A DNA stretch of 64,000 bases from Bryobacterales bacterium (lineage in GTDB: Bacteria; Acidobacteriota; Terriglobia; Bryobacterales; Bryobacteraceae), in contig PMTR01000009.1 of assembly GCA_003167255.1 (NCBI GenBank), forward strand, positions 38,758 to 102,757, in the 5' to 3' direction. Position 1 is the first letter of the stretch. The number at the start of each line of letters is the position of its first letter. This document shows positions 47,423-64,000 of this stretch, one piece after another. The notes under the pieces were generated by a model. That model was not told where the DNA came from. It ran no database searches and saw nothing but the letters and a program-made list of their open reading frames with translations. The position numbers and the translations under genes are program-made.

Positions 47423-47473
47423 TAGGTTAAGGCGTGAGCCGCGCTCGCGTTCTTGACCAGCCTCTCCTGTTCG

Positions 47474-47806
47474 CTAGGTCTGCTTGGCGCCGTGCCCCAT
47501 TGTTGTATAGGTTGCACGCCGCGCCCAGCGTGCGGCCGCAACCAGGGCGAGTGGCCCAAGTATCATCACCGATATAGCCCCCCAGTCGAGCCCTTGGCCA
47601 CGCATGACCACCGTGGACGTCACGACCGACGTTAGACCGTAGCCGGTGAGCAGAATTCGGCGGTATCGGTCGAGCGGCTGCGAACTGCGGCGCAGCTCGC
47701 GCATCAGGCGCTGGTCGAAATCAGGCGGCAAGCTCGGGACAGGCGCGGCCATGGAACGCCGTAGCAAACTATCGATCTCGGCTTCGCGAGGTTCCATCTC
47801 AGTCAC
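47474..47806 (-). CDS. Small membrane protein, possible anti-sigma factor
   Basis: 110 residues: a charged N-terminal part (EAEIDSLLRRSMAAPVPSLPPDFDQRLMRELRR) followed by two hydrophobic segments (about 51-66 and 75-91). It overlaps the end of the ECF sigma gene by 8 bp, so it is translationally coupled. The PPDFDQRLMREL phrase is frequent in acidobacterial anti-sigma or sigma-linked membrane proteins. No zinc-binding HxxxCxxC motif is present, so the anti-sigma assignment rests on context. Confidence 0.65.
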   Translation of the reverse strand: MTEMEPREAEIDSLLRRSMAAPVPSLPPDFDQRLMRELRRSSQPLDRYRRILLTGYGLTSVVTSTVVMRGQGLDWGAISVMILGPLALVAAARWARRATYTTMGHGAKQT

Positions 47807-48359
47807 AAGAATATCCTTTCTCTTTCAGCATGCCATGGAGAAGCTGGCGCGCGCGATGCAGATACGATTTGGCAGTATTCGCGGGAACGCCAAGCAATTC
47901 CGCCACTTCGCCTACGCCCGAGCCCAGCCAATAGTACAGTCGTAAGGCCGATTGGTAGATCTCGGGTAGCGTTTGAATGCACTTGGCAAGGGCGTGATCG
48001 CGCTGCGCCGTTTCAGCCTGTCGGTACGGTCCCGGTCCCGGACTCACCGCCTGATAAAGAACCGTCTCGTCCGCGTGTGGGCTTCGGAAGCGAACCCGAG
48101 CCTTCAGGTTCACCGCCTGATTGAACGTGATCCGGTAGATCCAGGAGCTGAATTCGGCCTCGCCGCGAAACGACTCGATCGCGTGGTGAACCTTGAGAAA
48201 CACCTCTTGCGCCACGTCTTCCGCTTCCGGAATAAACTCCCGGCCCAAAATCGAAACCGCGAGGCGAAACACCAGAGCGCTATAGCAGCGAACCAGTTCC
48301 GCGAAAGCTTGCTGGTCGCCGCTCTGCGCGCGGGCCACGAGTTGGGAATCGCTCTCCAC
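47799..48359 (-). CDS. ECF-type RNA polymerase sigma factor
   Basis: 186 residues from GTG 48359, chosen because it starts 6 bp after the stop of the preceding gene. Region 2: AFAELVRCYSALVFRLAVSILGREFIPEAEDVAQEVFLKVHHAIESFRGEAEFSSWIYRI. Region 4: LPEIYQSALRLYYWLGSGVGEVAELLGVPANTAKSYLHRARQLL. There is no region 1 or 3, as in ECF sigma factors. It would direct RNA polymerase to a specific promoter set and is probably held by the membrane protein encoded next. Middle gene of a three-gene operon. Confidence 0.9.
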   Translation of the reverse strand: MESDSQLVARAQSGDQQAFAELVRCYSALVFRLAVSILGREFIPEAEDVAQEVFLKVHHAIESFRGEAEFSSWIYRITFNQAVNLKARVRFRSPHADETVLYQAVSPGPGPYRQAETAQRDHALAKCIQTLPEIYQSALRLYYWLGSGVGEVAELLGVPANTAKSYLHRARQLLHGMLKEKGYSCD

Positions 48360-48364
48360 TGGCG

Positions 48365-48739
48365 TTAACGCCCAGGCTTGGCTTGCAAGAAATGGAAGGC
48401 AATCAGGCCCACGCCTAAGAAAGTGAAGGGCAGAGGGGCCACCCAAGATCCATGGGACGGAGTCGGAAGAATGAGGGCGAGCACGATCATGGTTCCAACC
48501 GAGAGACTTAAAAGAACCGTTCCCAAAATCGGCAGGACGGTCGGATCGGGCGGACGGCGCTCGCGCGCCGGCTCCAATGGAAACTCCGGCAACGGTATTC
48601 CCTTTTCCATCGCCGCCATCCGCTCCTGATGAATGATCTCGATCCTTTTCTGCCGACTCTGGTGCTTCATGAAAAGATAACCAAGAATGCTTCCCGCCAA
48701 CGCGAACGTGACCATACCATCGCCGATTGTGTAGCTCAT
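48365..48739 (-). CDS. Small two-helix membrane protein
   Basis: 124 residues. An N-terminal membrane segment (about 5-24, IGDGMVTFALAGSILGYLFMK), a charged cytoplasmic stretch (RQKRIEIIHQERMAAMEKGIPLPE), and two closely spaced hydrophobic segments (about 69-89 and 97-117). The MEKGIPLPEFP phrase is typical of DUF6249-like proteins encoded next to ECF sigma factors. AAGGAG lies just upstream of the ATG. First gene of the sigma factor operon; function unknown. Confidence 0.7.
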   Translation of the reverse strand: MSYTIGDGMVTFALAGSILGYLFMKHQSRQKRIEIIHQERMAAMEKGIPLPEFPLEPARERRPPDPTVLPILGTVLLSLSVGTMIVLALILPTPSHGSWVAPLPFTFLGVGLIAFHFLQAKPGR

Positions 48740-48851
48740 TTCTCCTTCACCTCACCCTTAGGACAAGGTGTGCCGGGTGCCGGTTGCAGCGGGTCGAACA
48801 AGAATTTGGGTTCGCATTGACCAGCCGTGGGGCCTGGAACCAAGTTCGACT

Positions 48852-50002: not shown

Positions 50003-50200
50003 AGCCGCGGCGCCGCCATAATGGAGGCTACGGGCCGCGAAACCACCAAGCGCACCGGGCAGTCGTTCCCGGTGCAGGCGCAATACGCCGCCGGCAAGTG
50101 GACCGTCGTCATGCAATTGCCCGACATGGCCGCCGGCACGCCGTTGGCCGTCGCGGTCTGGAACGGCGCACAGCAGCCAAGATTGGCTGCCCACAATTCA
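50003..50200 (+). pseudogene. Fragment resembling the C-terminal end of a haem-binding EB_dh-type domain
   Basis: In one + strand frame the region reads GRETTKRTGQSFPVQAQYAAGKWTVVMQLPDMAAGTPLAVAVWNGAQQ. The pattern GKWTVV...G.P.AVAVWNGA is like the last strands of ethylbenzene-dehydrogenase-related haem-binding domains. No start codon, upstream domain or RBS belongs to it, and the frame runs into a palindromic repeat at 50173-50194. It is probably a decayed 3' remnant; homology is by eye only. Confidence 0.35.
50173..50194. repeat. Palindromic repeat GCAGCCAA...TTGGCTGC
   Basis: GCAGCCAA-GA-TTGGCTGC followed by CCAC. This is the second hairpin of the longer element at 12333-12373 occurring alone, at the 3' end of the CRTAC1 operon. 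Confidence 0.75.
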
Positions 50201-51865
50201 GCGCCCCGGTTCCGTTACGGTCAGAATCTGATCGGCCTTCACCTTCTTCAGGATCTGCACAATCCCGCTGGGCCAGCGGATCTCCAGAGAGTCAATCGCC
50301 TTCTCAGTCCCCAGCCCGAAGTGCACCCGCTTGTCGCTGGACGACATGAATCCGCCGGAAGTGGTCACATGGTTATAGAGTGTGCGGCCGGAAGCCGTGG
50401 TCAGTTTCAGCACAGCGCCGATACCGTCGCGATTACTCCGGCGGCCGATGGTGTTGACCAGCAGCCAGTGATTTCCGTTATCGGCCGAGTTCATCAGGAT
50501 ACGCGGCTTCTCAGCGAGCGATGTCACTACCAGGTCCGGGAAGCCGTCGTTGTTCAGGTCCACGAAGGCCGAGCCGCGCTGGAAACCGGCATGGTTGAAA
50601 TCGGGGCCTAACTGGGCGGAGACATCCCGGAACTCCTTGCCATTCACGTTTTCGAACATGGTGTCGGGCTGGCGCGAGATTTCGCCCATGTTATCGATGT
50701 CTCCGTTGGATGAGTAAAGATCCTTCCATCCGTCATTGTTATAGTCGACGAAACCGTTGCTCCAGCCGGAGCTATGCTCGCTGAGGCGCGATACATGAGA
50801 CAGGCCGGAAACATAGCTCATATATTTACCGCCCATGTTGCGGAACAGCCCCCATATCTGGCCCTTGAGGTTGTTATAGAAGAGGTCCGGGAAGCCGTCG
50901 TTATCGTAGTCTTTGGCGTCGGCGCCCATGGAGGAATGCGCATTGCCGTTCTCGTCATACGCGACGCCCCACTCGTAACCGGACTCCTTAAACGTCCCGT
51001 TTTTCTGGTTGATGAAGAGAAAATTCCGCACGGTGTCATTGGCCACGAATACGTCCATATAGCCGTCGCCGTTGAAATCCGCGATGGCGATACCCATTCC
51101 TTTGCCCAGTTCCTTGCCGATGCCGGACGAGTCGGTCACATCTTCGAAGCGGCCATTGCCGAGGTTGTGATAGAGACGGTGCGCGACGCTGGGATAGACC
51201 TTGGGATGGCAGTAATATTCCTGACCGTTCACAGCGCAGATCTTATCGATCTGAGGCGTCCAGACCGTGTAATTGGAGACGATGAGGTCCAGCTTGCCGT
51301 CGTTATCGTAGTCGAACCAGGCGGCGGCGACACTCACGATATCCTTCGGCTTCGTCCCGATGCCGGAGCGCTCCGTAACGTCGGTGAACGTGCCGTCGCC
51401 GTTGTTGTGGTACAGCGTATTCGGTCCCGCGTTGCAGATGAACAGATCTTGGTAGCCGTCGTTGTCGTAGTCGCCGGCAGCCACACCGAAGCTGAATCCG
51501 AGTTTCTTGCCGAGCAGGCCGGCGCGCGCAGTGACATCCTCAAACGTGCCGTCGCCGCGATTGCGGAGCAGGCAATTGTAGAAACGCGCATCCGTCTTCT
51601 CCATTTCGGGAAGCTTGGCGCCGTTGGTGAAGAAAAGGTCCATGCGGCCGTCGTTGTCGAAATCGAAGGCGGCCACTCCGCCGCACATGGTTTGCGGGAA
51701 ATACTTCCGGCCGGTGAAGTTGTTGTCCGTGCGGTAAGCGAAGTCGGATTTGGGAGCGATATCGGTGAAATGCGGCCGGCGCGGTTCCGGTTGGGCGCCG
51801 GCGGCGGCCACCCACAACGCAGCGCCCGCCACGCACAATGCGGCCACGGCCCACCACCGCCTCAT
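50198..51865 (-). CDS. CRTAC1-family protein (FG-GAP/VCBS repeats, ASPIC/UnbV)
   Basis: 555 residues with a signal peptide (ALCVAGAALWVAAAGAQ). Multiple calcium-loop repeats of the form DFDNDGRMDLFFTNGAK, DYDNDGYQDLFICN, DYDNDGKLDLIVSN and DFNGDGYMDVFVAND build a seven-bladed propeller. The last 80 residues, from GNHWLLVNTIGRRSNRDGIGAVLKLT to LEIRWPSGIVQILKKV, form the ASPIC/UnbV domain. Such proteins are extracellular or periplasmic; their function in bacteria is not established. Last gene of an overlapping run. Closest relative in this window is the + strand gene at 59735. Confidence 0.92.
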   Translation of the reverse strand: MRRWWAVAALCVAGAALWVAAAGAQPEPRRPHFTDIAPKSDFAYRTDNNFTGRKYFPQTMCGGVAAFDFDNDGRMDLFFTNGAKLPEMEKTDARFYNCLLRNRGDGTFEDVTARAGLLGKKLGFSFGVAAGDYDNDGYQDLFICNAGPNTLYHNNGDGTFTDVTERSGIGTKPKDIVSVAAAWFDYDNDGKLDLIVSNYTVWTPQIDKICAVNGQEYYCHPKVYPSVAHRLYHNLGNGRFEDVTDSSGIGKELGKGMGIAIADFNGDGYMDVFVANDTVRNFLFINQKNGTFKESGYEWGVAYDENGNAHSSMGADAKDYDNDGFPDLFYNNLKGQIWGLFRNMGGKYMSYVSGLSHVSRLSEHSSGWSNGFVDYNNDGWKDLYSSNGDIDNMGEISRQPDTMFENVNGKEFRDVSAQLGPDFNHAGFQRGSAFVDLNNDGFPDLVVTSLAEKPRILMNSADNGNHWLLVNTIGRRSNRDGIGAVLKLTTASGRTLYNHVTTSGGFMSSSDKRVHFGLGTEKAIDSLEIRWPSGIVQILKKVKADQILTVTEPGR

Positions 51866-53010
51866 CTCGGTTTGGTTCCTGCCGGGAGGGCGTCCCGCCG
51901 ATCCATGAGCTTCTGAGAGACGGCGCGTTCGCGATCGCCGTCGGCGCTGCGATTCAGCCGGTAGTAGACGGTCGCTAGAGTAGCGTGCGCCTCCGCGAAA
52001 TCGGGCGATTCCGCAATCAGAACTTCCAGCGCCCGGCGCGCCAGCTCGAGATTGCCGGTGGACAGATCGACATTGGCCAACTGATACCGCACCCCCGGAT
52101 CGTTAGGGCGCGTCCTGAGAGCGCGCTCGAAATAGCGGCGCGCCTCCGCGTACCCCTGGTCCTGCTTGGCCAGCACGCCCATGTTCAGGTTGGAGGTGAA
52201 CTCGTCGGGATCGAGGGCCAGTTCATGGGCGAAGACGGCGCGCGCGCGTTCGGAATCTCCCTGGGAAAGCAGCAGTTCGCCCAAGCGGGCATGAGCCCCG
52301 GCGAGACGGGGGTTCAAGGCGATGGCCTTCTCAAGGTCGGCGCGCGCGCTGTCGCGGTCGTGCGCGCTCAGTTCCAGAGTGCCCCGCAGCAGATAGGCTT
52401 CGGCGGAATCGCCCCGGCTGAGAATGCGGCTAATGACGGCCGTGCCGGCGGCTTCCTGGCCATCGCCGATGAGGGCGGTTCCAAAGAGATAGTCGAATCC
52501 CGCGTCGCCGGCCTTGTCTTTCTCGAGCGGGGCCAGGAGGGCCACAGCGTCCTTATATCTTCCCAGGTTGTTATAACAGACGGCGAGCAGCAGAGTGACC
52601 TGCTCCTTGAACTGAGGCGAGAGGGAGACGGCCCGTTCGAAGCGGGCGGCAGCTTCGGCGTGGCGGCCCGTTTTGTAATAGGCGAGACCCAGATTCAGCA
52701 GGAGGGCGGGATTGTCCGGGCTCTTGCGAAGACCGAGGGCGTATTCCGCGATGGCCTCGTCGTAGCGGCCCGCGCGCGCCAGGACGGTGCCCAGATTCGA
52801 ACGCGCTTGCACGGAATCGGGCTCGACGGCGAGGTATTCGCGATACGCGCGGATCGCGTCATCCAGTTCGCCTGCCTGGTGCAAGGTAATGGCATGTTGG
52901 AGGAGCGCGTCGGAACTGGCGGCGGGCTGCTGCCCGCCAAGAGTGGACGCGAGGAGGCTAATGATGAAGCAGAGTGGGGCGGGCTTGCTTTTGGGAGTGC
53001 GCGCGGTCAT
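51862..53010 (-). CDS. Exported TPR-repeat protein
   Basis: 382 residues with a signal-like hydrophobic N-terminus (LCFIISLLASTLGG). Nine or so tetratricopeptide units follow, for example DAIRAYREYLAVEPDSVQARSNLGTVLARAGRYDEAIAEYALGLRKSPDNPALLLNLGLAYYKTGRHAEAAARFERAVSLSP. TPR proteins mediate protein-protein contacts. It overlaps the genes on both sides by four bases and sits between a second TPR gene and a CRTAC1 gene. Confidence 0.88.
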   Translation of the reverse strand: MTARTPKSKPAPLCFIISLLASTLGGQQPAASSDALLQHAITLHQAGELDDAIRAYREYLAVEPDSVQARSNLGTVLARAGRYDEAIAEYALGLRKSPDNPALLLNLGLAYYKTGRHAEAAARFERAVSLSPQFKEQVTLLLAVCYNNLGRYKDAVALLAPLEKDKAGDAGFDYLFGTALIGDGQEAAGTAVISRILSRGDSAEAYLLRGTLELSAHDRDSARADLEKAIALNPRLAGAHARLGELLLSQGDSERARAVFAHELALDPDEFTSNLNMGVLAKQDQGYAEARRYFERALRTRPNDPGVRYQLANVDLSTGNLELARRALEVLIAESPDFAEAHATLATVYYRLNRSADGDRERAVSQKLMDRRDALPAGTKPR

Positions 53011-54158
53011 TGGCTTATCTCGACAGCCAGTTTTCTCAGGCGGGCGAATTCGGCTCGTTCGCGGGCGGCTTCGGCCTTCTTGCCCGCCATGGAGTAAGCT
53101 GTTGCCAAAGAGAAGTGTACCTGCGGACTGTCCGGGGCCTGCTGCCGGGCGATCTCGAGCTCTTTAATTCCCTGTTCCGCCTGGCCGGCGCTGGCCAGCA
53201 GCTTGCCCAGCACAGCGTGGGCCCCGAAGAATTGAGCATCCGCCTCGACCGCGCGCCGCGCGTACGAAATGGCCGTGTCTAAATCGCCGCGCGCCTCGTA
53301 CTCCAAGGCAATGGTCGCCAGGGCCTCCGTGTGCTTCGGGTTCAGCTCCAGTTCTTTCTGATATTCGCGCAGGCCCGCATCCTTATCGGTCGCCGACAGA
53401 AACGATCCATAGAGATAGTGGACGTTGGCCGCCTTCGGATAGGCGGCCACCAGCTCCGCGAAGTACGTTTGCGCCGCCGCGGGATCCCTCTGGGCCATCG
53501 CACAGACAGCTCGTCCGGCACTCTCAATCAAGTCCTTGTCACCCGGCGGCAGTTCTTCGGGAAAGATGGGCCGCCGCAGACCCGCGATCCCCGCGGCCTC
53601 AATTACGGCCGGGCCGGCGCCGCCATCCTTCACGACACTCATCAGCACTTGCATAGCGGACTCATACTCCTGGAGCCGCGTGAGCAGCAACATCTCGTGA
53701 AACAATACCACCCTCCTGATTTGGGGGTCGTCGCCCAAACCGAGACGGTGCGCCTGATAGATGTGATTGAGCGCCTTGGCGTACTCCTTCGTTTCAAACT
53801 CGCAGAGGCCCAGCAGCGCGAAGCCCGGGCCGGTCGTCTGATCGAGGGCTATCAGCCGGCGCAAAGAGTCCCGCGCTTCCGGATACTGGTTCTGGTCGTA
53901 AAGCAGCTCGCCCAGGAACCACCAGCCTTCGGTCCATGAAGGACGCAGCTTGACGGCCTGGCGGTACAACCCGATCGCGTCCTCGATGCGGTTTTCGGTG
54001 CGCGCCCCTGTGGCCGCCCGCGATGCCCGGTCGAACGCGGCAGAGGCAGCCTCCGGCGCCTTCTGACCGGCGGCGGCAACCGGCCCCAGAAGCGCCGCCA
54101 GGGAGAAAGCCGCGGCTGCTCGCCAGAGGACTGGAATCGCGCGCGGGGCAAAATGCAT
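53007..54158 (-). CDS. Exported TPR-repeat protein
   Basis: 383 residues from the ATG at 54158, with AAGGAG upstream inside the end of the preceding gene; the longer open frame upstream is a shadow of that gene. Signal peptide FSLAALLGPVAAAG. TPR units include AIGLYRQAVKLRPSWTEGWWFLGELLYDQNQYPEARDSLRRLIALDQ and YQKELELNPKHTEALATIALEYEARGDLDTAISYARRAVEAD. Second TPR protein of the run; it starts 2 bp after the CRTAC1 stop at 54161. Confidence 0.88.
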   Translation of the reverse strand: MHFAPRAIPVLWRAAAAFSLAALLGPVAAAGQKAPEAASAAFDRASRAATGARTENRIEDAIGLYRQAVKLRPSWTEGWWFLGELLYDQNQYPEARDSLRRLIALDQTTGPGFALLGLCEFETKEYAKALNHIYQAHRLGLGDDPQIRRVVLFHEMLLLTRLQEYESAMQVLMSVVKDGGAGPAVIEAAGIAGLRRPIFPEELPPGDKDLIESAGRAVCAMAQRDPAAAQTYFAELVAAYPKAANVHYLYGSFLSATDKDAGLREYQKELELNPKHTEALATIALEYEARGDLDTAISYARRAVEADAQFFGAHAVLGKLLASAGQAEQGIKELEIARQQAPDSPQVHFSLATAYSMAGKKAEAARERAEFARLRKLAVEISQ

Positions 54159-54160
54159 CG

Positions 54161-55969
54161 TTACGGAGTCTCCTTCACATGTAGCGCCTGATCGCCACGC
54201 ACGTCCTTCAGTGTCTGGACAATTCCCGACGGCCAATGGATGACCACCGACTCCGCCACTTCGTTCGCGCCCAACCCGAAATGCACCGGCCCGCAGCTCG
54301 ACGAGGCATAGCCCACGCTGGTGGTCATGTGGTTGTATTGCGAGCCGCTTTTGGTGGTGACTTGAATCCGCGCGCCGATGCCGTCGCGGTTGCTCCTGGT
54401 TCCTTCCAGTGCGATGTCCAGCCAGTGCCCGGCGCCGGGGCTGCGATTCATCCAGATTTCGGCCGGGTGCGCGAGCGCCGAGGTCACGACATCGATTCTG
54501 CCATCCCCGTCCAGGTCGCCGAACGCCAGGCCGCGATGGCGCGCCGCCGGCGAGACATCCAATCCTGCTTCGGCGGTGAGCGCCTCCCATCGCCCGTTGG
54601 CGCCGCCCGCGGCGCCGAGGTTCCGAAATACGGTGTTGTGCTGCTCTACTGTGGTGTTTGGCATCGGGCGGGACAACACGTCTCCGCGGCTGACGAACAG
54701 GTCCTTCCATCCGTCGTTGTCGAAATCGAAGAGTCCGACGCCGAATCCGGCCATCCGCATGCACAGCGTGCGCATGCCGCTCTGCGTGGTCACTTCCCGG
54801 AAGTCTTTCCCGGCCGCGTTCTTCCATATTGGAAAGGTCTGGTTTTCCAGCGCCGCGGTTACCAGGTCCGGGTATTCGTCGTTGTTAAAATCGCGAAAAT
54901 CCAGCCCCATTCCGGATATGAAGTTGCCGTCTTCCGGCAACGCCACGCCCTTCTGAAACGCGACTTCCTCGAACTTGTTGCCCAGATTGTGGAACAGGAA
55001 ATTATAAGATCCGTCATTGGTGACGAAAAGGTCTGGACGGCCATCCAGATCGTAATCGGCCATGCCCCCGCCCATGCCCTTCCCCACATGCGCGCGAATA
55101 CCCCATTGCTCCGAGACGTCTTCAAACTTGCCATTGCCCTTGTTCAGATACAACTGGTTAGGCAGGCCCTTATAAGACCGCGGCGAGCAATAGTCCGACA
55201 CTCCCTTGTACTCGCAGAGGGGCTCGGTGGCGTAGTCCCATTGCAGATAGTTGACCACGAACAGGTCGAGGAGACCATCGTTGTTGACATCCACCCAGAC
55301 CGCCGTAATCCCCCACATCGGCCCATATTTGGCGTCGGGGAGATTGGAGATGCCGGCCTTCTCGGTGACATCGGTGAACGTACCGTTGCCGTTGTTGTGA
55401 TAAAGCGTATTGTGGTGGACGCCTGTCACAAACAAATCGGGATAGCCGTCGTTATCGTAATCTCCCACCGCCACTCCGCTATCGAAGCCGGTGCCGGCCA
55501 GTCCGGCGGATTCGGTGACATCCGTGAATACGCCACGGCCATCGTTGCGAAACAGACGGTTGCGGTATTTCGGGTCGTCCTTTTTCAACGTGGCCAGATT
55601 GGCGCCATTGGTGAAGAAGATGTCGGGACGTCCGTCGCGATTGTAATCGAACACCGCCAGGCCTCCGGCCATAGTGGCGGGCACATGCCGCGCGACGACT
55701 TCGCCATGCTCGAGTTGGAAGGCGATGGGCTTGAGCTCGAACCGGATTGCCGGCGCCGATCCGTCCGTCGCGCGCAGCCACCAAGCCGCGCTTACCACCA
55801 GCGGAAGCAGCAAACACGTCATGCCGCTCATCACGCTGAACCCCCGCCGCACCAGGGCCCGCAAACCGTCGCGGTCTAAGATTGGCGCGGGCGGTTTCGC
55901 CGGCGCTTCCCCTGGGTGATTTCTGTCGCGGGCCGCCAGCGAAATCAGGCGACGGGAATCCATATCCAT
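54161..55969 (-). CDS. CRTAC1-family protein (FG-GAP/VCBS repeats, ASPIC/UnbV)
   Basis: 602 residues from the ATG at 55969 (another ATG follows two codons later). A membrane anchor or uncleaved signal (about 48-63, CLLLPLVVSAAWWL) follows a 45-residue cytoplasmic arm. Repeats include DYNRDGRPDIFFTNGAN, DYDNDGYPDLFVTG, DVNNDGLLDLFVVN, DYDLDGRPDLFVTNDGS and DLDGDGRIDVVTS. The ASPIC/UnbV domain is at the C-terminus (WLDIALEGTRSNRDGIGARIQVTT...WPSGIVQTLKDV). The subtype differs from its operon mate at 50198 and is closest to the gene at 61396. First of the four-gene overlapping run. Confidence 0.92.
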   Translation of the reverse strand: MDMDSRRLISLAARDRNHPGEAPAKPPAPILDRDGLRALVRRGFSVMSGMTCLLLPLVVSAAWWLRATDGSAPAIRFELKPIAFQLEHGEVVARHVPATMAGGLAVFDYNRDGRPDIFFTNGANLATLKKDDPKYRNRLFRNDGRGVFTDVTESAGLAGTGFDSGVAVGDYDNDGYPDLFVTGVHHNTLYHNNGNGTFTDVTEKAGISNLPDAKYGPMWGITAVWVDVNNDGLLDLFVVNYLQWDYATEPLCEYKGVSDYCSPRSYKGLPNQLYLNKGNGKFEDVSEQWGIRAHVGKGMGGGMADYDLDGRPDLFVTNDGSYNFLFHNLGNKFEEVAFQKGVALPEDGNFISGMGLDFRDFNNDEYPDLVTAALENQTFPIWKNAAGKDFREVTTQSGMRTLCMRMAGFGVGLFDFDNDGWKDLFVSRGDVLSRPMPNTTVEQHNTVFRNLGAAGGANGRWEALTAEAGLDVSPAARHRGLAFGDLDGDGRIDVVTSALAHPAEIWMNRSPGAGHWLDIALEGTRSNRDGIGARIQVTTKSGSQYNHMTTSVGYASSSCGPVHFGLGANEVAESVVIHWPSGIVQTLKDVRGDQALHVKETP

Positions 55970-56030
55970 CCACAATACCGCATGTGCGGAAGCCGCTGTG
56001 AGCAGCGTCCTGCAGTATGGGCTGTCGCCC

Positions 56031-56056
56031 GGCTGGCAAGCTAAAGCATGCCCCAC
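56031..56056. repeat. Degenerate palindromic repeat
   Basis: GGCAAGCTAAAGCATGCCCCAC, an imperfect copy of the GGCAGGCTGAAGCCTGCCCCAC family, between the TonB receptor stop and the CRTAC1 gene. Confidence 0.6.
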
Positions 56057-56078
56057 CTCTGAAAGCACTGGCCACAAA

Positions 56079-59000
56079 CTAAAATGATAACCGAGCGCTT
56101 AACTGAAACTCCCGGCCCGGCGTTGTGGCTTCCGTTATGCTCCCGAACTGCGGCGTGTTTACGAATCGGTTGGGAGTTCCCCAGTTGGAATGATTGAGAG
56201 TGTTGTAGGCTTCCGCTCGCATCTCCAGGCGCACTCGCTCCACGATGGCGAACGATCGCGTCATCGCGATGTCCATGGTCTGCATCCCCGGCCCGTACAC
56301 CGTGTTGCGCCCCACGTTGCCGAAGCTGTATGCCGCGGGCGTCGCGAATGCGGCGGGGTTGAACCATGCGTTGGTGTTGCCGGTTCCGGGCCCGAATACC
56401 GCCTGGCCGGTATAGTTGGCGCGGATTGGATTCTCGCCCACTACCGTGCCGGCGTTAGCTGTGTCGCCGTACACCGAGATGGTGAAAGGAAAGCCGCTCT
56501 GCACCTGGTACAGCGTGGAAAACCTCCAGTCGCGAGTCAGCGCCCGACCGGCGCGGCCTCTCCCGAACACAGGAATATCGTATACGGCGCTCACCACAAA
56601 GCGATGACGCACATCGCACGCCGGGCCTTTTTCGGCCTCCAGATCGCGGCTGTTCTGCGGAACCGCCGATTCGAACATGGGCGAGCGGAAGTCCGGCGCG
56701 CTGCTCAGGTTCTTTGAGTAGGTGTAATTCGCCAGCAAGCTCAGCCCTTTGGAATACCGCCGCCGGAGGTTAATGTATCCCGCGTCATACCAGCTTCTCG
56801 CCGTGTCTTGGAGCATGTTCACGGTGCTTACGGGAAAGGTGAGACCCGTCGACGCCACGTTTGCGGGTATCACCGTACCGGGCAGGAACGTCGCTGTCGG
56901 ATAAGGCCGCCGCGGCTGCAGCGTGCCCGGCCCGGGGAGGTCGTTGTTGATCAGGTCCGACCGCTGCAGATGGAAGCCGCGCTCGCCGTGATATCCCATC
57001 TCGACCGTCGTATCGTGTCCCAAGCTCTTCTGGACGGATGCGCTCCACTGCTGGACGTACTGCGCCGGTGCGTGGGGATGGAAGGCGGTGAAACTCACCA
57101 CCGTAGTCCCCAGCACCGGCTGAGGGAAGTTGAAGCCGTTGATGGAGGGCGTGAAGTTATCGCTTTGTTGGGTGATGGGAAAGACCAGCGGCACGTTGTG
57201 CAACTGGTTGCACCAGGTGTTCAAATCCACCGGCGTATAGAAAATCCCGTAGGCCGCCCGCACCACCAGGCCTGCGCTCTCCACATGGTGCGCTATGCCG
57301 AGCCGCGGCGCGAAACGCAGCTTGCTCGGGTACATCAGCCCGCGCGGCATTCCGCTCTCGCCGCCGATGAACGCTGCCAGTCCCGTGCTTGTCTGATACA
57401 GATTGCTCCAATGGCGCGAGGTATCCACCAGGGGCGCCATGAATTCATACCGCACACCCGCGTCAATCGTGGTGTGCGGCGCCACGCGCCAGGTGTCCTG
57501 CGCGAACGCGTCTGCCGACCACTGCCGCAAGTCCATCGTGGGCACGCCGTTCTGCACCTGCCGCGTGGCGGGAAGACCCAGCAGAAAGCTCGCCAGCGCG
57601 TCGCCCGTGCCGTCGTTGGTCGCGGTCTGCGTGGTAAATCCGTTGGTAAACGTGTAGTAGCCGCGGCTCTGCACCAATGCCCACATCGGCCAAATGTACC
57701 AGCGGTAGCTTCCGCCGAACTTCAGGCTGTGAGCGCCCCTTTGCCAGTTCAAGGTTTCGCGGCCCTCCAGCATGGTGTCCCACATGTGCATCGGTGTGGC
57801 CAACCACGAATCGCCGAACGGCGAGTAGCCCTGTACGTTGAAGGACGGCGCGCCCCAAGCGCCCTGGCCGCCAAAGTTGACGCCGGTAATTCCTAGCGCA
57901 TCTACGATGTCATTGACCCCGTTATTCTCCGTGTGGTGAAACATGCTCAGCCTCGACACCGTGACCGACGCCGTGTTCACCACCGTGGGCGAGATGATCC
58001 GCGTCCAGACGATCGACCCGTTCTGGCCCATGTTGTCGTGAAAGAAACCATAGCCCGGCAGGTTTTGGGGATAGAACCCGTGCTCGCCGCTCACCGAGTA
58101 GCGCGCGTATATAAAGTCGCCGCCGGTGAACATCCGGTCTACGCGGATCGTACCCTGATTGGTGGTCAATCGCGAGTCGCGCAGGTCCAGCAGGTTATTC
58201 GAATCCTGGCCGCCGCTGTTGCCCAGAACGGTGGGTGTCCCCATCATGGTCATGTCGCCCATCATGCCGTTGTCCATATTAGGCAGCGGCGTGTAGTTCT
58301 GCAGCATCTTGAAAGCCGCCGCATACAGCCGGCTTGCCGGAATCACGTTGCCGGGAAAGGCGCTGCGCATCACCTGGGGATTCGACGGGCCCGCCGGCAG
58401 CGCCGGATTGTAGGCCGGGTTTGGGACGGAGTTCGAAGGATCGAATATCTTCGTTCCGCTTTGGCTGAAATCTCCTCCATCTTCAGCAGCGGTGGGGACA
58501 GTGTCGATTGAGGTCTGAGCCTGGGTCCGGCGGTAACCCTCATAATTGGCGAAGAAGAAAGTCTTCTTACCGTAAACCGGACCGCCCAGCGAGGCGCCGA
58601 AATTGTGCTGCACCAGGAATGTGGTTCCAGGCATCTCGTTCCAGGTGCGCGCATCGAGCGCGCTATTGCGAAGGTATTCGTACGCCGTCCCGTGGAATTG
58701 GCTGGTTCCCGCTCTGGTGATGATGTTCACTTGCCCGCCGCCGGCCCCACCCATCTCGGCGCGGTAGCTGCCGGTCTGCACCTGAAACTCCCGAACTGCG
58801 TCGGGTGACGGACTGAAGTTCTGCGTGTTGAACGTCGGATCGGTGTTGACCGCACCATCCAACAGGAAATAGTTCGCATTCGGGCGGTTGCCGCCGATTG
58901 TAATCGCCGATGCCTGTCCCGGACGCCAGTACAGTGGGTTCATCGTACCCGTCTGCGCTCCGTGACCCTGATGCGCGCCGGGAACGGTGAGGGCGAGATC

Positions 59001-59438
59001 GAGTAGCATGCGCCCGTTGAGCGGCAACTCCTGGACCGACCTCGGCTCGACCACCTCGCCGAGACTCGCATCCTGTGTCTTGAGCGTTTCGGCGGTAGCC
59101 GTGACCGCAACAGTTTCTCGCCGCTGGCCCAGTTCCATGGCGAAGTCGATACCAATGCGCTGGTTGACTTCCAGCGTCACGCTATGCAAGAGCGTCAGGA
59201 AACCCGGAGCTCTGACCTCAACGGAATAGTCCCCAGGCATAAGGTTCACCGCCTCGAACAGCCCGTCGCTGTTCGAGATGAGCGAACGAACCGAGCTTGT
59301 GTCCTTGGCCGTGATTGTCACGAGCGCGTGATCGAGCGCCCGATGGGAGGGGTCATCAATCCTTCCGCTAATGGTGGCGAAATTGCTCTGCGCCAGAGCG
59401 GCAACAGAGAGGCAAAACAGACCGAGTGCGGACCGCAT
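56079..59438 (-). CDS. Oar-like TonB-dependent outer membrane receptor
   Basis: 1119 residues from the ATG at 59438 (MRSALGLFCLSVAALAQ, signal peptide). An N-terminal carboxypeptidase-regulatory-like beta-sandwich covers about 20-105 (ISGRIDDPSHRALDHALVTI...SVEVRAPGF). A plug domain follows with LPLNGRMLLDLALTVPG and AITIGGNRPNANYFLLDG, then a large beta-barrel ending in the aromatic RLSF typical of outer membrane barrels. This layout is abundant in Acidobacteria and linked to uptake of polymers or to surface protein handling. It starts the leftward cluster and is divergent from the + strand CRTAC1 genes; 109 bp separate it from the downstream CRTAC1 gene. Confidence 0.93.
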   Translation of the reverse strand: MRSALGLFCLSVAALAQSNFATISGRIDDPSHRALDHALVTITAKDTSSVRSLISNSDGLFEAVNLMPGDYSVEVRAPGFLTLLHSVTLEVNQRIGIDFAMELGQRRETVAVTATAETLKTQDASLGEVVEPRSVQELPLNGRMLLDLALTVPGAHQGHGAQTGTMNPLYWRPGQASAITIGGNRPNANYFLLDGAVNTDPTFNTQNFSPSPDAVREFQVQTGSYRAEMGGAGGGQVNIITRAGTSQFHGTAYEYLRNSALDARTWNEMPGTTFLVQHNFGASLGGPVYGKKTFFFANYEGYRRTQAQTSIDTVPTAAEDGGDFSQSGTKIFDPSNSVPNPAYNPALPAGPSNPQVMRSAFPGNVIPASRLYAAAFKMLQNYTPLPNMDNGMMGDMTMMGTPTVLGNSGGQDSNNLLDLRDSRLTTNQGTIRVDRMFTGGDFIYARYSVSGEHGFYPQNLPGYGFFHDNMGQNGSIVWTRIISPTVVNTASVTVSRLSMFHHTENNGVNDIVDALGITGVNFGGQGAWGAPSFNVQGYSPFGDSWLATPMHMWDTMLEGRETLNWQRGAHSLKFGGSYRWYIWPMWALVQSRGYYTFTNGFTTQTATNDGTGDALASFLLGLPATRQVQNGVPTMDLRQWSADAFAQDTWRVAPHTTIDAGVRYEFMAPLVDTSRHWSNLYQTSTGLAAFIGGESGMPRGLMYPSKLRFAPRLGIAHHVESAGLVVRAAYGIFYTPVDLNTWCNQLHNVPLVFPITQQSDNFTPSINGFNFPQPVLGTTVVSFTAFHPHAPAQYVQQWSASVQKSLGHDTTVEMGYHGERGFHLQRSDLINNDLPGPGTLQPRRPYPTATFLPGTVIPANVASTGLTFPVSTVNMLQDTARSWYDAGYINLRRRYSKGLSLLANYTYSKNLSSAPDFRSPMFESAVPQNSRDLEAEKGPACDVRHRFVVSAVYDIPVFGRGRAGRALTRDWRFSTLYQVQSGFPFTISVYGDTANAGTVVGENPIRANYTGQAVFGPGTGNTNAWFNPAAFATPAAYSFGNVGRNTVYGPGMQTMDIAMTRSFAIVERVRLEMRAEAYNTLNHSNWGTPNRFVNTPQFGSITEATTPGREFQLSARLSF

Positions 59439-59734
59439 GTTTTGGCGATTATATGGTGCCGGGACCTTTGCGATCAATAATATGAAGTAATTATCCCCGG
59501 CCTAGTTGCGGTCCGAGATGAAGTCCCCTCTCGGGAACTCAGGCGATTCCTTAGAACTAGCAACACGTGTAACTCCGCCGCCTGATGAATCGAGCCCCGC
59601 TTCGCATCGCCCTAGGCTCCCCGACTTCCGTACGCTGGCACTTGGCAATGGCGTTCCCGGCCAGGAACCCGCCGAACTCCGCTTACAATAGGGATTCGGA
59701 GTCTGACACCAGCGCCCATTCGCCGGAGGAACAG
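59439..59734. promoter_or_regulatory. Divergent control region of the TonB/CRTAC1 cluster
   Basis: 296-bp gap between the divergent starts at 59438 and 59735. It must hold promoters for both directions. The part near 59450-59500 is AT-rich (ATTATATGG and CAATAATATGAAGTAATTATCC), unlike the surrounding DNA. No operator could be assigned. Confidence 0.5.
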
Positions 59735-61399
59735 TTGAAGCGCACGATCGCCCTGGCTATATCGAGTCTCTGCGCCTTCTTGTTTGTGGCGCTGCCGCCG
59801 GGCCGGCCCGCCCAGACTCCCAAGCGCCCCCACTTCACGGACGTGGCGGCGCGCTCGCAGATCTCCTACCGCAGCAACAACAGCCCCGGAGGGCACAAGT
59901 ATTTTCCGCAGCCCATGTGCGGCGGGGTGGCCATCTTCGACTTCGATAACGACGGCCGGCTGGACATATTTTTCACTAACGGCGCGCAGCTTCCGGAAAT
60001 GAAGAAGACAAACCCATCGTTTTACAACTGCCTATTGAGGCAGCGCACCGACGGAACGTTCGAGGATGTCACCAGCAAGGCGGGCTTGACGGGTAAAGAT
60101 CTCGATTTCAACTTCGGTGTGGCGGTGGGCGATTATGACAACGACGGCTACGAGGATCTCTTCGTTTGCGGCGCCGGTCGCAACGCCCTATACCACAACA
60201 ACGGCGACGGGACTTTCACGGATGTCACGGCGGCTTCGGGCATTGGCGGCAAGCCGCCGAATACGCTGAGCGTGGCGGCCGCCTGGTTCGATTACGACAA
60301 CGACGGGCTGCTGGATCTCATAGTGGATAACTACACCTTCTGGACGCCGCAGACAGACCTGCGCTGTACCATGGGCAGTGCGGAATACTACTGCGATCCG
60401 CGGCGCTACCAGAGCGTGCCGCCGCGCCTCTATCGCAATCTGGGCCATGGCAAGTTCGAGGATGTCACCGAAAAGTCGGGCTTAGCTAAGTCGCCGGGCA
60501 AGGGAATGGGCATCTCCATCGCGGATTTCAATAACGATGGATGGCCCGACATTTTCATCGCCAATGACACCGAGCCCAATTCGCTGTTCATCAACCGGAA
60601 GAATGGGACGTTTGAGGAACAGGGGTTGGAACTGGGCGTTGCCTATAACGATAGCGGGAACACAGGATCGTCTATGGGGTCGGACGCCAAAGACTATGAC
60701 AACGATGGCAACGTAGACATCTTCTACAACAACCTGAAGGGCCAAGTGTGGCAGCTATTGCGCAATGACAGCAACCTGTTCCAGTTGGCCTACGTGTCGA
60801 AGGTGCAAACACTGAGCCTGCCTTTTTCCGGCTGGAGCAATGGATTCATCGACTACAACAACGACGGATGGAAGGACATCTACTCGGCAAATGGGGATGT
60901 CGACCAGGTGAACGAGAAGTCGCCGCAACATGACACGATGTTCGAAAACCTAGGAGGGAAAACATTCCTGGATGTTTCCGGGGAGATGGGCAAAGACTTC
61001 CAAAGGATCGGCTACCAGCGCGGCTCGGCCTTCGGAGACCTGAACAACGATGGAGCGATGGATATCGTGGTGACCTCGCTGAACGCGACGCCGCGCATTC
61101 TCATGAACAGCGCGGATAGCGGTAACCACTGGCTGTTGCTGAGCCTCACCGGTCACAAGAGTGCGCGGGACGCGGTGGGCGCGAAGATCAAATTAACGAC
61201 TGCGTCGGGGCGAGTGCTTTACAACCACGTTGCCATCAGCGTTGGCTTCATGTCGTCGAGTGACAAGCGCGTGCACTTCGGGTTGGGAGACGAAACCAAG
61301 GTTAGCTCCATCGAAATCCGCTGGCCGAGCGGGATTCGACAGGTACTAAAGGATATCAAGGCGGACCAGGTTTTGAAGATCGATGAGGCGGGGAAATGA
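59735..61399 (+). CDS. CRTAC1-family protein (FG-GAP/VCBS repeats, ASPIC/UnbV)
   Basis: 554 residues from the TTG at 59735, with GGAGGA six bases upstream and a signal peptide following (LKRTIALAISSLCAFLFVALPPG); the in-frame ATG at 59585 lacks both. Repeats DFDNDGRLDIFFTNGAQ, DYDNDGYEDLFVCGAG, DYDNDGLLDLIVDN and DFNNDGWPDIFIANDTE are followed by an ASPIC/UnbV end (NHWLLLSLTGHKSARDAVGAKIKLTT...WPSGIRQVLKDI). It is the close paralogue of the 50198-51865 gene (shared KYFPQ-MCGGVA, WTPQ and SSDKRVHFGLG blocks). ATGA overlap with the next gene. Confidence 0.92.
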   Translation: MKRTIALAISSLCAFLFVALPPGRPAQTPKRPHFTDVAARSQISYRSNNSPGGHKYFPQPMCGGVAIFDFDNDGRLDIFFTNGAQLPEMKKTNPSFYNCLLRQRTDGTFEDVTSKAGLTGKDLDFNFGVAVGDYDNDGYEDLFVCGAGRNALYHNNGDGTFTDVTAASGIGGKPPNTLSVAAAWFDYDNDGLLDLIVDNYTFWTPQTDLRCTMGSAEYYCDPRRYQSVPPRLYRNLGHGKFEDVTEKSGLAKSPGKGMGISIADFNNDGWPDIFIANDTEPNSLFINRKNGTFEEQGLELGVAYNDSGNTGSSMGSDAKDYDNDGNVDIFYNNLKGQVWQLLRNDSNLFQLAYVSKVQTLSLPFSGWSNGFIDYNNDGWKDIYSANGDVDQVNEKSPQHDTMFENLGGKTFLDVSGEMGKDFQRIGYQRGSAFGDLNNDGAMDIVVTSLNATPRILMNSADSGNHWLLLSLTGHKSARDAVGAKIKLTTASGRVLYNHVAISVGFMSSSDKRVHFGLGDETKVSSIEIRWPSGIRQVLKDIKADQVLKIDEAGK

Positions 61400-63057
61400 A
61401 GCGTTGGTCTTTGATCGTAACCGCTGCCGGCGTGCTCCTCGCGGCGCCGGCGGCGGGCATAATTGCTTTCGAGGAAATCGCCGAGCGCTCCGGCCTCATT
61501 TTCACCGCCAATAGCTGCCCCACGCCCAACAAGAACCAGCCTGAGACAATGGTGGCTGGTGTCGCGCTACTGGACTACGATAACGATGGTTACCTCGACG
61601 TCTACCTGGTGAACGGCGCCGCTATCCCATCTCTCAAGAAAGAAAGCCCGAAGTACTGGAATCGGCTCTTCCACAACAACCGTGACGGCACGTTTACCGA
61701 CGTGACCGAAAAGGCTGGAGTTGCGGGAGAGGGTTACGGCATGGGCGTGGCGGTCGGCGACTTCGACAACGACGGCTGGCCGGACCTCTACGTCGTCAAC
61801 GTGACGAAGAATCAGCTTTTCCGCAACAACCACGACGGCACCTTCACCGACGTAACGGATCGGGCGCACGTGGGCGGAGGTATGCTCGACGGCAAGAAAA
61901 TGTGGTCCGTCTCGGCCGTCTGGCTCGACTACAACAACGACGGGCTGCTGGATTTATTCGTCTCCAATTACTGCAAATGGGAGGTGAATCAGGACCCGGT
62001 TTGCCGCGCGAATCCCACGACACGCTCTTACTGCCATCCGAAATACTACCAGCCTCTACCGAACACGCTATACCGCAATAACGGCGACGGGACCTTCACC
62101 GACGTATCCGCGGAAACCGGCATCGGCAAGCATTTCGGCAAGGGCATGGGGGCCGTGATCGCCGACTACGACGGGGACGGGTTCATGGACGTGTTCGTCC
62201 CCAACGACAACATGCCCAATTTTCTCTTCCACAATATCGGAGGGAAAAAATTCGAGGAGGTCGCCCTGGAAAGCGGCGTGGCATACCCGCAGAGCGCTAA
62301 CGCGGTCTCCAGCATGGGCGCCGATTTCAAGGATGTTTGGAACGACGGCAAGCCGGATATCTGGCACACCGCCACCGAGAACGAATCGTTCCCCCTGTAT
62401 CGGAACCGCGGTGAAGGAGCCTTTTGGGAGGTAACCGACCAGAGCATGCTGGGGGGAACGCGCGACATGTCGGGGTGGTCGAACGGAATCTTCGATTTCG
62501 ACAACGACGGCTGGAAGGACCTTTTCGCGGCCCGCGGAAACGTGCTCGACAACGTGGCCCTGACCTCCAGCCGCACCTACGGAGAGAACAATGCGGTCTT
62601 CCGCAATCTCGCTAACGGCAAGTTTCGGGATGTGAGCGCGGAAGCCGGAGCCGACTTCCAGAAAACCGCGCCCCACCGCGGTGCGGCGTTCGGCGATCTC
62701 GATAACGATGGCCGCGTCGACGCGGTAGTCACGGTGCTCAACGGCCAGATGAAATACTTCCATAACGTTACGGAGAACCGGAACCACTGGATTCTCCTGA
62801 AGCTGGTTGGAACCAAGAGTAATCGAATGGCCATCGGGGCGCAGATCCGGATCACCACCGGGGACAACTTGCGGCAGTATAACCAAGTCACCACAGCCTG
62901 CGGCTACGCCAGTGCGAGCGACTCGCGTGTTCACTTTGGGCTAGGGGCATCCAAGATCATCCGGGAGATCGACATCAAATGGCCCAGCCGCATTCACCAG
63001 GTTCTGCGAGATGTCCCGGCGGACCAGATTCTGACCATTAAAGAGCCTGCTCAGTAG
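61396..63057 (+). CDS. CRTAC1-family protein (FG-GAP/VCBS repeats, ASPIC/UnbV)
   Basis: 553 residues with a signal peptide (LIVTAAGVLLAAPAAG). Starts FEEIAERSGLIFTANSCPTPNKNQPETMVAGVALLDYDNDGYLDVYLVNGAA and keeps calcium-loop repeats through DLDNDGRVDAVVT. The C-terminal ASPIC/UnbV domain ends IDIKWPSRIHQVLRDVPADQIL. Its arrangement of blocks (DYCSP/SYCHPKYYQPLPNTLY, GKGMGAVIADYDGDGFMDVFVPND) is closest to the 54161-55969 protein. Overlaps the upstream gene by four bases; 41 bp from the convergent cytochrome gene. Confidence 0.92.
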   Translation: MKRWSLIVTAAGVLLAAPAAGIIAFEEIAERSGLIFTANSCPTPNKNQPETMVAGVALLDYDNDGYLDVYLVNGAAIPSLKKESPKYWNRLFHNNRDGTFTDVTEKAGVAGEGYGMGVAVGDFDNDGWPDLYVVNVTKNQLFRNNHDGTFTDVTDRAHVGGGMLDGKKMWSVSAVWLDYNNDGLLDLFVSNYCKWEVNQDPVCRANPTTRSYCHPKYYQPLPNTLYRNNGDGTFTDVSAETGIGKHFGKGMGAVIADYDGDGFMDVFVPNDNMPNFLFHNIGGKKFEEVALESGVAYPQSANAVSSMGADFKDVWNDGKPDIWHTATENESFPLYRNRGEGAFWEVTDQSMLGGTRDMSGWSNGIFDFDNDGWKDLFAARGNVLDNVALTSSRTYGENNAVFRNLANGKFRDVSAEAGADFQKTAPHRGAAFGDLDNDGRVDAVVTVLNGQMKYFHNVTENRNHWILLKLVGTKSNRMAIGAQIRITTGDNLRQYNQVTTACGYASASDSRVHFGLGASKIIREIDIKWPSRIHQVLRDVPADQILTIKEPAQ

Positions 63058-63098: not shown

Positions 63099-64000
63099 TT
63101 AGTTCGGGTACGGTTCGCCCTTCTTGGCGATGCGGATCTGGTGATCGGTGAACTGGGCGTGCGCGCCCGGCAGGTCGACCTTGGGCATGTGGCATTCGAC
63201 GCAGTTGGCTTTGGCCACGCGGCAGACCTTGGTGTGCAAGGCCGTTGAATGGCAGGACTTGCATGTCGCGTCGTAGCTCGACAGGTTGGTGGCGAGCGCC
63301 CCGTGCGGGTCGTGGCAGGCAGTGCAGCGGATGCGCCGATCCTCGACGTCGTAGCATTTACTGTTGGTCAGCCGGTAGGGCTGGAAGCGCACAGTATTCG
63401 GGCCGCGCATTCCGGTTAGAGCGATCTGCGCCCACGTGCGATGGCACCGGCCGCACAATTCGGCCATATCCTCCGGTCCCAGGCCGGCCAGGTGCGGCAG
63501 TTTCGCGGCAGCCACATTCCCGGCGCGAACCGCGTTGGCATGTTTTTCCACTTGCCCATGGCACGACTGGCATCCGACGCCGGGCACGACCGACTCGACA
63601 TGCAGCATTCCCCCGGACACACCGCCATTGGAGTGGCACCCGAGGCAATTGGCCGCGTCGGGTGGTTCCAGGCGGCGGCCGGCGGCCTCGACGATCGTCT
63701 GCGGTTTCGTGCCGATGTCTCCGATGGTTAGATCGAGCGCGGCCGGCCCGTTATAGAAACTGACTCGGCTCTCGTACATCGCCCCTTCATATTGGAAAAC
63801 ATAGGTCTGGCCGGCCTTTCCCTGGCCCAATGCCCAGAGGATTGGAACGGTAAAGGTCTCAGTCCCACGGGTCACGGTAAGGATGCTGCGATCACCCTCC
63901 CGCTTAATTTGGGAGTGGTAGGGACCCTCTTGAAACTGGAGATCGGGATGGTTCTTGAGAATGTCGCAGAGTTCTATGGTTTCGAGCGCCTGCGCCATCG
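63099..64000 (-). CDS. Multihaem cytochrome c, partial
   Basis: At least 299 residues; the 5' end runs past the window, since no signal peptide is seen and the first ATG at 63998 opens inside an already folded-looking sequence. Six CxxCH haem sites: CLGCH, CQSCH, CGRCH, CTACH, CKSCH and CVECH. CTACHDPHG and CVECHMPKVD are typical of the cytochrome c3-/NrfA-related or doubled-CXXCH families with TPR partners in Acidobacteria. It must be exported for haem attachment. Its neighbours are CRTAC1 genes, which are often found near multihaem cytochromes. Confidence 0.88.
   Translation of the reverse strand, partial: MAQALETIELCDILKNHPDLQFQEGPYHSQIKREGDRSILTVTRGTETFTVPILWALGQGKAGQTYVFQYEGAMYESRVSFYNGPAALDLTIGDIGTKPQTIVEAAGRRLEPPDAANCLGCHSNGGVSGGMLHVESVVPGVGCQSCHGQVEKHANAVRAGNVAAAKLPHLAGLGPEDMAELCGRCHRTWAQIALTGMRGPNTVRFQPYRLTNSKCYDVEDRRIRCTACHDPHGALATNLSSYDATCKSCHSTALHTKVCRVAKANCVECHMPKVDLPGAHAQFTDHQIRIAKKGEPYPN

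Follow-up and report, generated by a model that had tools for sequence, protein, structure and literature searches.

Clustered CRTAC1-like, TPR and TonB-dependent receptor genes as an apparently undescribed cell-envelope module of Acidobacteria

Vertebrate CRTAC1 combines an FG-GAP propeller with a C-terminal ASPIC/UnbV domain (PF07593). Oar of Myxococcus xanthus, an outer-membrane protein featuring a CarboxypepD_reg N-terminal extension, a plug-like region and a barrel, is known for the secretion of PopC (PMC6434023), while the SusCD/RagAB systems of Bacteroidota encode a TonB-dependent barrel together with exported helical-repeat and ligand-binding-type proteins, of which SusD is TPR-bearing (PMC2954216). 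In soil Acidobacteria, CRTAC1-like (ASPIC/UnbV) proteins are strongly expanded, with up to 56 matches per genome. Within the open-licence PMC literature, we found neither a function for these bacterial proteins nor a paper on the gene combination CRTAC1-TPR-TonB.

The window analysed here, a stretch of 64,000 nucleotides from a Bryobacterales bacterium, contains seven genes of these families, whose order and strands, as described in a previous sequence-only reading, were confirmed (Table 1). That reading had also reported 4-bp overlaps along the leftward run. Exact overlaps of this length are present between TPR2 and TPR1 (53007-53010) and between TPR1 and A (51862-51865), as well as between A' and B' (61396-61399), and a further one joins B to TPR2 provided that TPR2 starts at GTG 54164. 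In contrast, the receptor (stop at 56079) does not overlap B, and the 1-bp gap between them is a product of the longest ORF; as homology of B with its orthologues starts near 55987-55969, the true gap is about 90-110 bp. The start of A' is most likely TTG 59735 rather than 59585, in which case the divergent starts of the receptor and A' lie about 295 bp apart, and promoter-like matches in this intergenic region were no commoner than in shuffled sequences. To the right, the cluster runs on past the end of the window, with a convergent multihaem cytochrome gene (from 63099), a paralogue of TPR1 (47%) and one more TPR gene, the third. In three genomes, one of them the window genome, A'B' is found with a related cytochrome; a general cytochrome c partnership was rejected, as no enrichment was observed near CRTAC1 genes. 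A second TonB-TPR-CRTAC1 run was found in the same genome at C29.

Table 1 Features of the locus, with positions in the window.
Feature	Position	Strand	Remarks and basis
CRTAC1 type A	50198..51865	-	seven-bladed FG-GAP propeller and C-terminal ASPIC/UnbV domain behind a signal-peptide-like N-terminus; Pfam
TPR1, predicted exported superhelical TPR protein, ~10 repeats	51862..53010	-	Pfam, AlphaFold2
TPR2, predicted exported TPR protein	53007..54164	-	start GTG 54164 or ATG 54158; Pfam
CRTAC1 type B	54161..55969	-	start uncertain, longest ORF to 56077; Pfam, orthologues
A-TPR1-TPR2-B cassette (conserved block)	50197..55987	-	DNA identity to relatives
Putative Oar-class TonB-dependent receptor	56079..59438	-	CarboxypepD_reg, weak plug, OMP_b-brl_4 (Pfam)
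Divergent intergenic region	59439..59734	.	sigma-70-like promoter match for receptor at 59477-59448
CRTAC1 type A'	59735..61399	+	TTG start behind GGAGG; Pfam
CRTAC1 type B'	61396..63057	+	tandem with A' in window; Pfam

Comparison across genomes revealed that CRTAC1, exported TPR and TonB receptor genes cluster far above background in Bryobacteraceae and other Acidobacteriota. Type A forms a discrete ortholog group with about 70 matches in other genomes of the family. Within two genes of type A, a TonB receptor was present at 31/55 loci, a TPR gene at 38/55 and both at 29/55, compared with 3/155, 11/155 and 0/155, respectively, for background genes taken from these loci (n = 155), counts that are not independent because the genomes are related. 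At roughly half of the type A loci sampled, the set is incomplete within this distance. We conclude that these parts belong to an apparently undescribed cell-envelope module, widespread in Acidobacteria and best sampled in Bryobacteraceae, and tentatively favour, as its most likely role, a calcium-stabilised, TonB-linked ligand-capture complex in the envelope. A role in defence was rejected, as PADLOC matches were weak and concerned generic TPR only.

All four CRTAC1 proteins of the window gave FG-GAP_3 matches (E 2e-48 to 4e-54) and C-terminal UnbV_ASPIC matches above the Pfam cut-off (E 2e-19 to 2e-23), and these were the only Pfam domains detected in them. DxDxDG-type loops number 7, 7, 6 and 6 (0.01-0.03 in shuffled sequence), with seven in type A and six in type B, a pattern that predicts calcium-type loops repeated in each protein. 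The AlphaFold2 model of type A, the only type modelled (pLDDT 95.5), matched murine CRTAC1 9etn over residues 28-554 (Z 42.4, rmsd 2.4, 22% identity; TM 0.73 to the solved CRTAC1), pointing to a common overall fold, and further fold matches include lectin (PVL) and integrin alpha propellers. TPR1 was modelled as a plain superhelix of 20 helices (pLDDT 93.2) with O-GlcNAc transferase TPR superhelices as best folds, and TPR2 has orthologues of 84% (G036) and 67% (G102) identity with the gene order kept. For the receptor, matches to PF13620 and PF25183 indicate a CarboxypepD_reg N-terminal extension and an outer-membrane barrel, by which it is putatively assigned to the Oar class; the plug match (PF07715) was weak (23.2-23.9 bits at a cut-off of 23.9), and a TonB-box-like ETVAVT occurs at residue 108.

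The N-termini of the CRTAC1 and TPR proteins are signal-peptide-like, and a simple pattern search found no clear lipobox in A, A', B, B', TPR1 or TPR2, so that they would have to reach the surface by some other route. Such proteins could be cargo of TonB-dependent export, in which an Oar-class receptor would pass the CRTAC1 proteins over the outer membrane together with TPR chaperones, as Oar does with PopC in Myxococcus, and Oar's N-terminal extension is present in the receptor of the window as well as in the R1 receptor described below. However, the CarboxypepD_reg domain is found in importers too and PopC secretion is a single case, and we consider export unlikely.

With protein identities of 66% for A/A', 49% for B/B', 44% for A/B, 45% for A/B' and 46% for A'/B', A and A' pair tightly, but the resemblance between B and B' barely exceeds that of either to A. 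Phylogenetic analysis placed A and B as deep, old paralogues in separate clades, ruling out that B is a recent local copy of A, and resolved A' as a clade separate from A, both inside type A. A single block duplication yielding both pairs is disfavoured by the unequal A/A' and B/B' identities and by the separation of the sub-loci in relatives. The two distinct CRTAC1 types of the sequence-only reading are thus borne out, and given these deep clades and the wide recurrence of the clustering in other genomes, neither a recent local origin of A and B nor an isolated occurrence of the gene combination applies. The proposed pairing of A with B stands in part: A' and B' adjoin one another in five further genomes, there divergent rather than tandem, but A lies near B in only 4/70 cases outside the window genome.

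The best-conserved partnership is instead that of B with B', which had been counted as one type. Among 27 genomes with B', 25 also hold B (Fisher p 2e-18), the two lie ≤9 kb apart in 13 genomes, and both are present in the window. At 10/20 sampled B loci, a receptor of the R1 clade is located directly upstream of B, co-directional and with a gap of 6-161 bp, an arrangement not seen in the window, and R1 and B covary (Mantel r 0.59, n = 10, 0/2000). Between B and B', or next to them, a divergent TPR pair and VWFA genes turn up repeatedly; in many B loci, one of the two CRTAC1 genes is adjoined by VWFA (TIGR03436) genes. These neighbours, together with the integrin alpha propellers among the fold matches, would suit an integrin-like adhesion or display complex, in which calcium-loaded FG-GAP propellers and VWFA proteins sit on TPR scaffolds and the receptor is a mere outer-membrane anchor. 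Near type A, however, VWFA genes are little above background (2/42 loci versus 1/56), a plain DxSxS MIDAS-like string occurs in only 2/6 VWFA seeds and a propeller-VWA fusion was not seen, which makes this reading quite improbable.

Absence of any functional coupling, with big paralogous exported families simply piling up in variable regions of a large genome, would be in line with the very large size of these families (up to the 56 ASPIC/UnbV matches per genome given above, and 75 receptor matches in the own genome) and with the paralogue expansion documented in related Solibacter (PMC3174227). This explanation is already disfavoured and equally improbable, as the receptor subfamilies are specific for, and covary with, the CRTAC1 type: receptors adjoining type A fall into few clades in the tree (9 changes versus a shuffled mean of 29.4, 0/500), and distances between type A proteins are correlated with the distances between their neighbouring receptors (r 0.69, n = 32) and between their neighbouring TPR proteins (r 0.67, n = 37), each with 0/2000 permutations. 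The lack of joint TonB and TPR occurrence among the background genes likewise argues against it.

The receptor of the window, which the sequence-only reading had included in its unit, did not hold up as a conserved CRTAC1 partner: none of its 33 orthologues in other genomes has an orthologue of A, B or B' within 15 kb, and 0/20 inspected orthologue loci contain a CRTAC1 gene. At the DNA level, a block spanning the receptor (56079-59520) is 90% identical to G030, while the cassette shares 89.5% identity with G036:C116 over 50197-55827 plus 55915-55987 and 79% with G102:C314. Cassette homology reaches as far as the stop codon of A at one end and stops upstream of B at the other, block limits fall in the gap between B and the receptor and, further on, upstream of the latter, and A'B' and the A-B cassette are located on separate contigs in both G036 and G102. 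In this assembly, the mirror layout is a local junction of three blocks that are apart in relatives, namely A-TPR1-TPR2-B, the receptor and A'B'; it is not a conserved unit but probably a local rearrangement, and repeats were not found at the junctions. One dedicated system of all seven mirror-image genes, including this receptor, is therefore very unlikely, even though the receptor shares its direction with B, TPR2, TPR1 and A at close spacing and relatives, too, use the position upstream of B for a receptor. As R1 often occupies this position elsewhere, the slot beside B is conserved and only its occupant differs here, being a receptor of a non-R1 clade (tree). The R1 receptor of the genome lies beyond the window but on its contig (C111:123955-127620), where two VWFA genes and the divergent pair of TPR genes are retained as well.

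For the favoured ligand-capture role, we infer a surface complex of A, B, TPR proteins and a receptor. The module comprises a TonB-dependent outer-membrane transporter of the Oar class and one or two CRTAC1-like proteins predicted to be secreted, each a predicted calcium-binding, seven-bladed FG-GAP propeller with ASPIC/UnbV, together with superhelical TPR proteins that are likewise predicted to be secreted, often joined in the B-type version by VWFA-domain proteins. By analogy with lectin- and integrin-type FG-GAP propellers, the CRTAC1 propellers may bind a glycan or peptide ligand, the TPR superhelices could tether them to the receptor or to one another, and the transporter would then bring the bound ligand through the outer membrane. 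Different ligand specificities might come from the two paralogues B and B' and, likewise, from A together with the receptor clades tied to it. Points against ligand capture are that the proteins carry no clear lipobox, unlike SusD-type surface lipoproteins, and that no recurrent catabolic or constant enzyme family was found beside the modules, where the largest unlabelled neighbour cluster occurs in 8 loci. LacI-family regulators were noted near CRTAC1 genes at several loci (raw occurrence), which would fit nutrient uptake. A more elaborate version, a hitherto undescribed TonB-energised envelope complex of Acidobacteriota in which separate CRTAC1 propellers and VWA proteins, the two kinds of domain from which integrin heads are built, assemble on TPR scaffolds at the transporter, with receptor and propeller subtypes exchanged as cassettes between genomes, is unlikely. 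By linking CRTAC1 subtypes to receptor clades, TPR and VWFA proteins, a vague paralogue family becomes a defined and testable module.

Compared with SusCD/RagAB, the window likewise encodes a TonB-dependent barrel with exported helical-repeat and ligand-binding-type proteins. However, TPR1 is predicted to be a plain TPR superhelix, Pfam searches of TPR1 and TPR2 returned TPR families and no SusD family match, neither a SusD-family partner nor a lipobox-bearing surface lipoprotein was found, and the CRTAC1 propeller is an additional protein. TPR1 as a SusD is thus unsupported by sequence or model; that SusD is missing from the best 50 fold matches listed is merely suggestive. CRTAC1 genes near hydrazine-synthase homologues also belong to a conserved cluster of exported proteins; the available part of that report mentions no TonB receptor or TPR protein and assigns the CRTAC1 protein no function (PMC12758564). 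With Oar, the window receptor has in common the CarboxypepD_reg extension and the barrel, together with a candidate plug-like region, whereas PopC secretion is what Oar is known for and the neighbours of the window receptor are CRTAC1 and TPR genes. Vertebrate CRTAC1 shares with the window proteins the FG-GAP propeller and the C-terminal ASPIC/UnbV domain, and the bacterial genes differ from it by the low identity noted for type A and by their clustering with TPR and TonB genes.

The assembly (7.35 Mb in 200 contigs, 98.9% complete) represents a Bryobacteraceae-type acidobacterial genome whose closest named relatives are MAGs of Bryobacterales and other Acidobacteriota; in it, the window spans C111:38758-102757. 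All seven genes that the sequence-only reading had joined into mirror-image CRTAC1 pairs around a TonB receptor were found in the order and orientation described. Its 4-bp overlaps were present at TPR2/TPR1, TPR1/A and A'/B', and at B/TPR2 if a GTG start is used, but not at receptor/B, where a B start near 55969 leaves about 110 bp between the genes. For A', a TTG start at 59735, preceded by GGAGG, is more likely. Inspection revealed signal-peptide-like N-termini in all seven proteins, least clearly in B, where the signal-like part is preceded by an RRGF motif and a lengthy charged segment, while a lipobox was found in none of the seven. Twin-arginine-like signals (MTRRSFLLGAAALPAMAA..., MNRRSFLGGLAG...) in CRTAC1 proteins at L002:15409-17064 and L177:13928-15601 suggest Tat export of some subtypes.

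Protein identities were 66% for A/A', 49% for B/B' and 44% for A/B. Across 237 genomes of the family, type A forms a discrete ortholog group, with matches of either 56-100% or at most 51% identity, one partial copy excepted. A tree of 101 rows placed type A in one clade (SH-aLRT 100) and B with B' in another (SH-aLRT 98), with separate subclades for A and A' and likewise for B and B', which rules out that A and B are recent local duplicates. By their sequences, A and B are thus real subtypes and the pairs old paralogues. All four proteins have a single UnbV_ASPIC domain and six stretches of FG-GAP_3, with seven DxDxDG-type loops in A and A' and six in B and B'. The unbV gene is also conserved in enediyne clusters, where its role is not known. 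A B'-like CRTAC1 at G000:C61:8707-10050 (72% over residues 9-454) is without the ASPIC/UnbV part and may be a truncated copy or one cut by a contig end.

Homology blocks were delimited by DNA comparison with relatives; for scale, rpoB DNA is ~84.5% identical to that of both genomes G036 and G102.

Blocks and further features in and near the window (window coordinates unless prefixed by a contig or locus)
Feature	Position	Remarks
A-TPR1-TPR2-B block	50197-55827, 55915-55987	89.5% to G036:C116, 79% to G102:C314
Receptor-only block	56079-59520	90% to G030:C139
A'B' block		~77-81% to G036:C29 and G102:C490
Convergent operon right of B'	63099-64000, L001:4857-8272 (C111, right of window)	Multihaem cytochrome (7 CXXCH), TPR1 paralogue (47%, 4-bp overlap), further TPR gene
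~100 bp stretch	36512-36613	Matches L035 and L179, unrelated loci, at 77-79%
ARAGORN tRNA-Glu call	44316-44402	Lies within long ORFs of low complexity and may be spurious
Segment with ECF sigma factor gene	47467-48851	DNA 93% identical to G036:C112, above rpoB (84.5%), so transfer may be involved
Divergent TPR pair	C111:114250-116533	Right of window
Two VWFA (TIGR03436) genes	C111:119089-122836	Right of window
R1 receptor	C111:123955-127620	Right of window, own genome
Two PD40-TPR genes	within L229 (C111:111500-131206)	Right of window

The locus therefore consists of separate homology blocks. No CRTAC1 or TPR gene lies near the receptor homologue at G030:C139, the G036 orthologue occupies a third contig (C80), none of 20 inspected loci with receptor orthologues (60-91% identity) contains a CRTAC1 gene, and no A, B or B' orthologue was found within 15 kb of any of 33 receptor orthologues. 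At G036:C29 and G102:C490 the genes A' and B' are divergent, whereas the window has them in tandem. The mirror-image layout is thus not a conserved unit, and a dedicated system of these seven genes as such is very improbable. In G036 and G102, A'B' is also accompanied by cytochrome and TPR3 homologues.

Co-occurrence of CRTAC1, TPR and TonB genes in other genomes is nevertheless real as a class. Within two genes of type A, a TonB receptor was found at 31/55 loci, a TPR gene at 38/55 and both at 29/55, against 3/155, 11/155 and 0/155 for background genes of the same loci, although the genomes are related and the events not independent. Type A is joined by receptors from a small number of clades (9 changes; mean after shuffling 29.4; 0/500). 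Its distances are correlated with those of the neighbouring receptor (r 0.69) and of the neighbouring TPR protein (r 0.67), at 0/2000 permutations each. Another TonB-TPR-CRTAC1 run occurs at C29 of the window genome, and others in further acidobacterial families. In the single genus g75, a deoxyhypusine-synthase-family gene (PF01916, 414 aa) directly adjoins type A at L072, L074, L076, L077 and L078.

With the best five candidates per genome scored, so that counts are lower bounds, B was present in 25 of 27 genomes having B' (Fisher p 2e-18, uncorrected for phylogeny) and within 9 kb of it in 13; A lay near B' in 7/70 cases and near B in 4/70. Among 20 B loci, selected because B' was close by or identity to B was high, ten have a receptor of the distinct clade R1 directly upstream and co-directional (gap 6-161 bp), and R1 and B distances co-vary (r 0.59, n 10, 0/2000). 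Beside R1-B, a divergent TPR pair, B' and VWFA-domain genes (TIGR03436) recur. The L229 stretch, in which the window genome keeps an R1 receptor, two VWFA genes, the TPR pair and two PD40-TPR genes, is collinear with G036:C116 but inverted, and its counterpart there adjoins B. The simplest reading of these sequences is that a rearrangement took the stretch away from B, whose slot another receptor now holds; an assembly fault may instead be responsible. The junctions of the rearranged blocks showed no repeats.

The best-supported explanation, still tentative, is that the locus parts form a TonB-linked ligand-capture complex. Its observed basis is the parts themselves and the linkage of receptor clade with CRTAC1 subtype, complemented by predicted folds: A, as modelled by AlphaFold2 (pLDDT 95.5, pTM 0.93), aligns with murine CRTAC1 (9etn) across residues 28-554 (Z 42.4, rmsd 2.4; TM 0.73), and the model of TPR1 (pLDDT 93.2) is a plain superhelix of 20 helices closest to O-GlcNAc-transferase TPR domains. 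In this scheme a peptide or glycan would bind to Ca-stabilised propellers docked by TPR superhelices, and the transporter would import the captured ligand. The window receptor combines CarboxypepD_reg, an OMP_b-brl_4 barrel, a weakly matching plug and a TonB-box-like ETVAVT, a domain layout that is that of the Oar subclass (PMC6434023); by analogy with Oar/PopC, TonB-dependent export of CRTAC1 is conceivable but unlikely. An integrin-like adhesion complex of propeller and VWA, for which the recurring VWFA genes would supply a partner, appears improbable, and equally so mere paralogue crowding with no coupling, given the background counts around type A.

The component families (CRTAC1, Oar-class receptors, TPR proteins) are each already known. 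Paralogue expansion in Solibacter was described in 2011, and an ASPIC/UnbV group was part of that analysis (PMC3174227); ASPIC/UnbV genes are multi-copy in Poribacteria (PMC3909097), and a CRTAC1 gene adjoins hydrazine-synthase homologues (PMC12758564). For the TonB-CRTAC1-TPR(-VWFA) combination, no paper was found among the open-licence PMC papers searched. We liken the module to known envelope systems that are TonB-linked and include accessory binding proteins.
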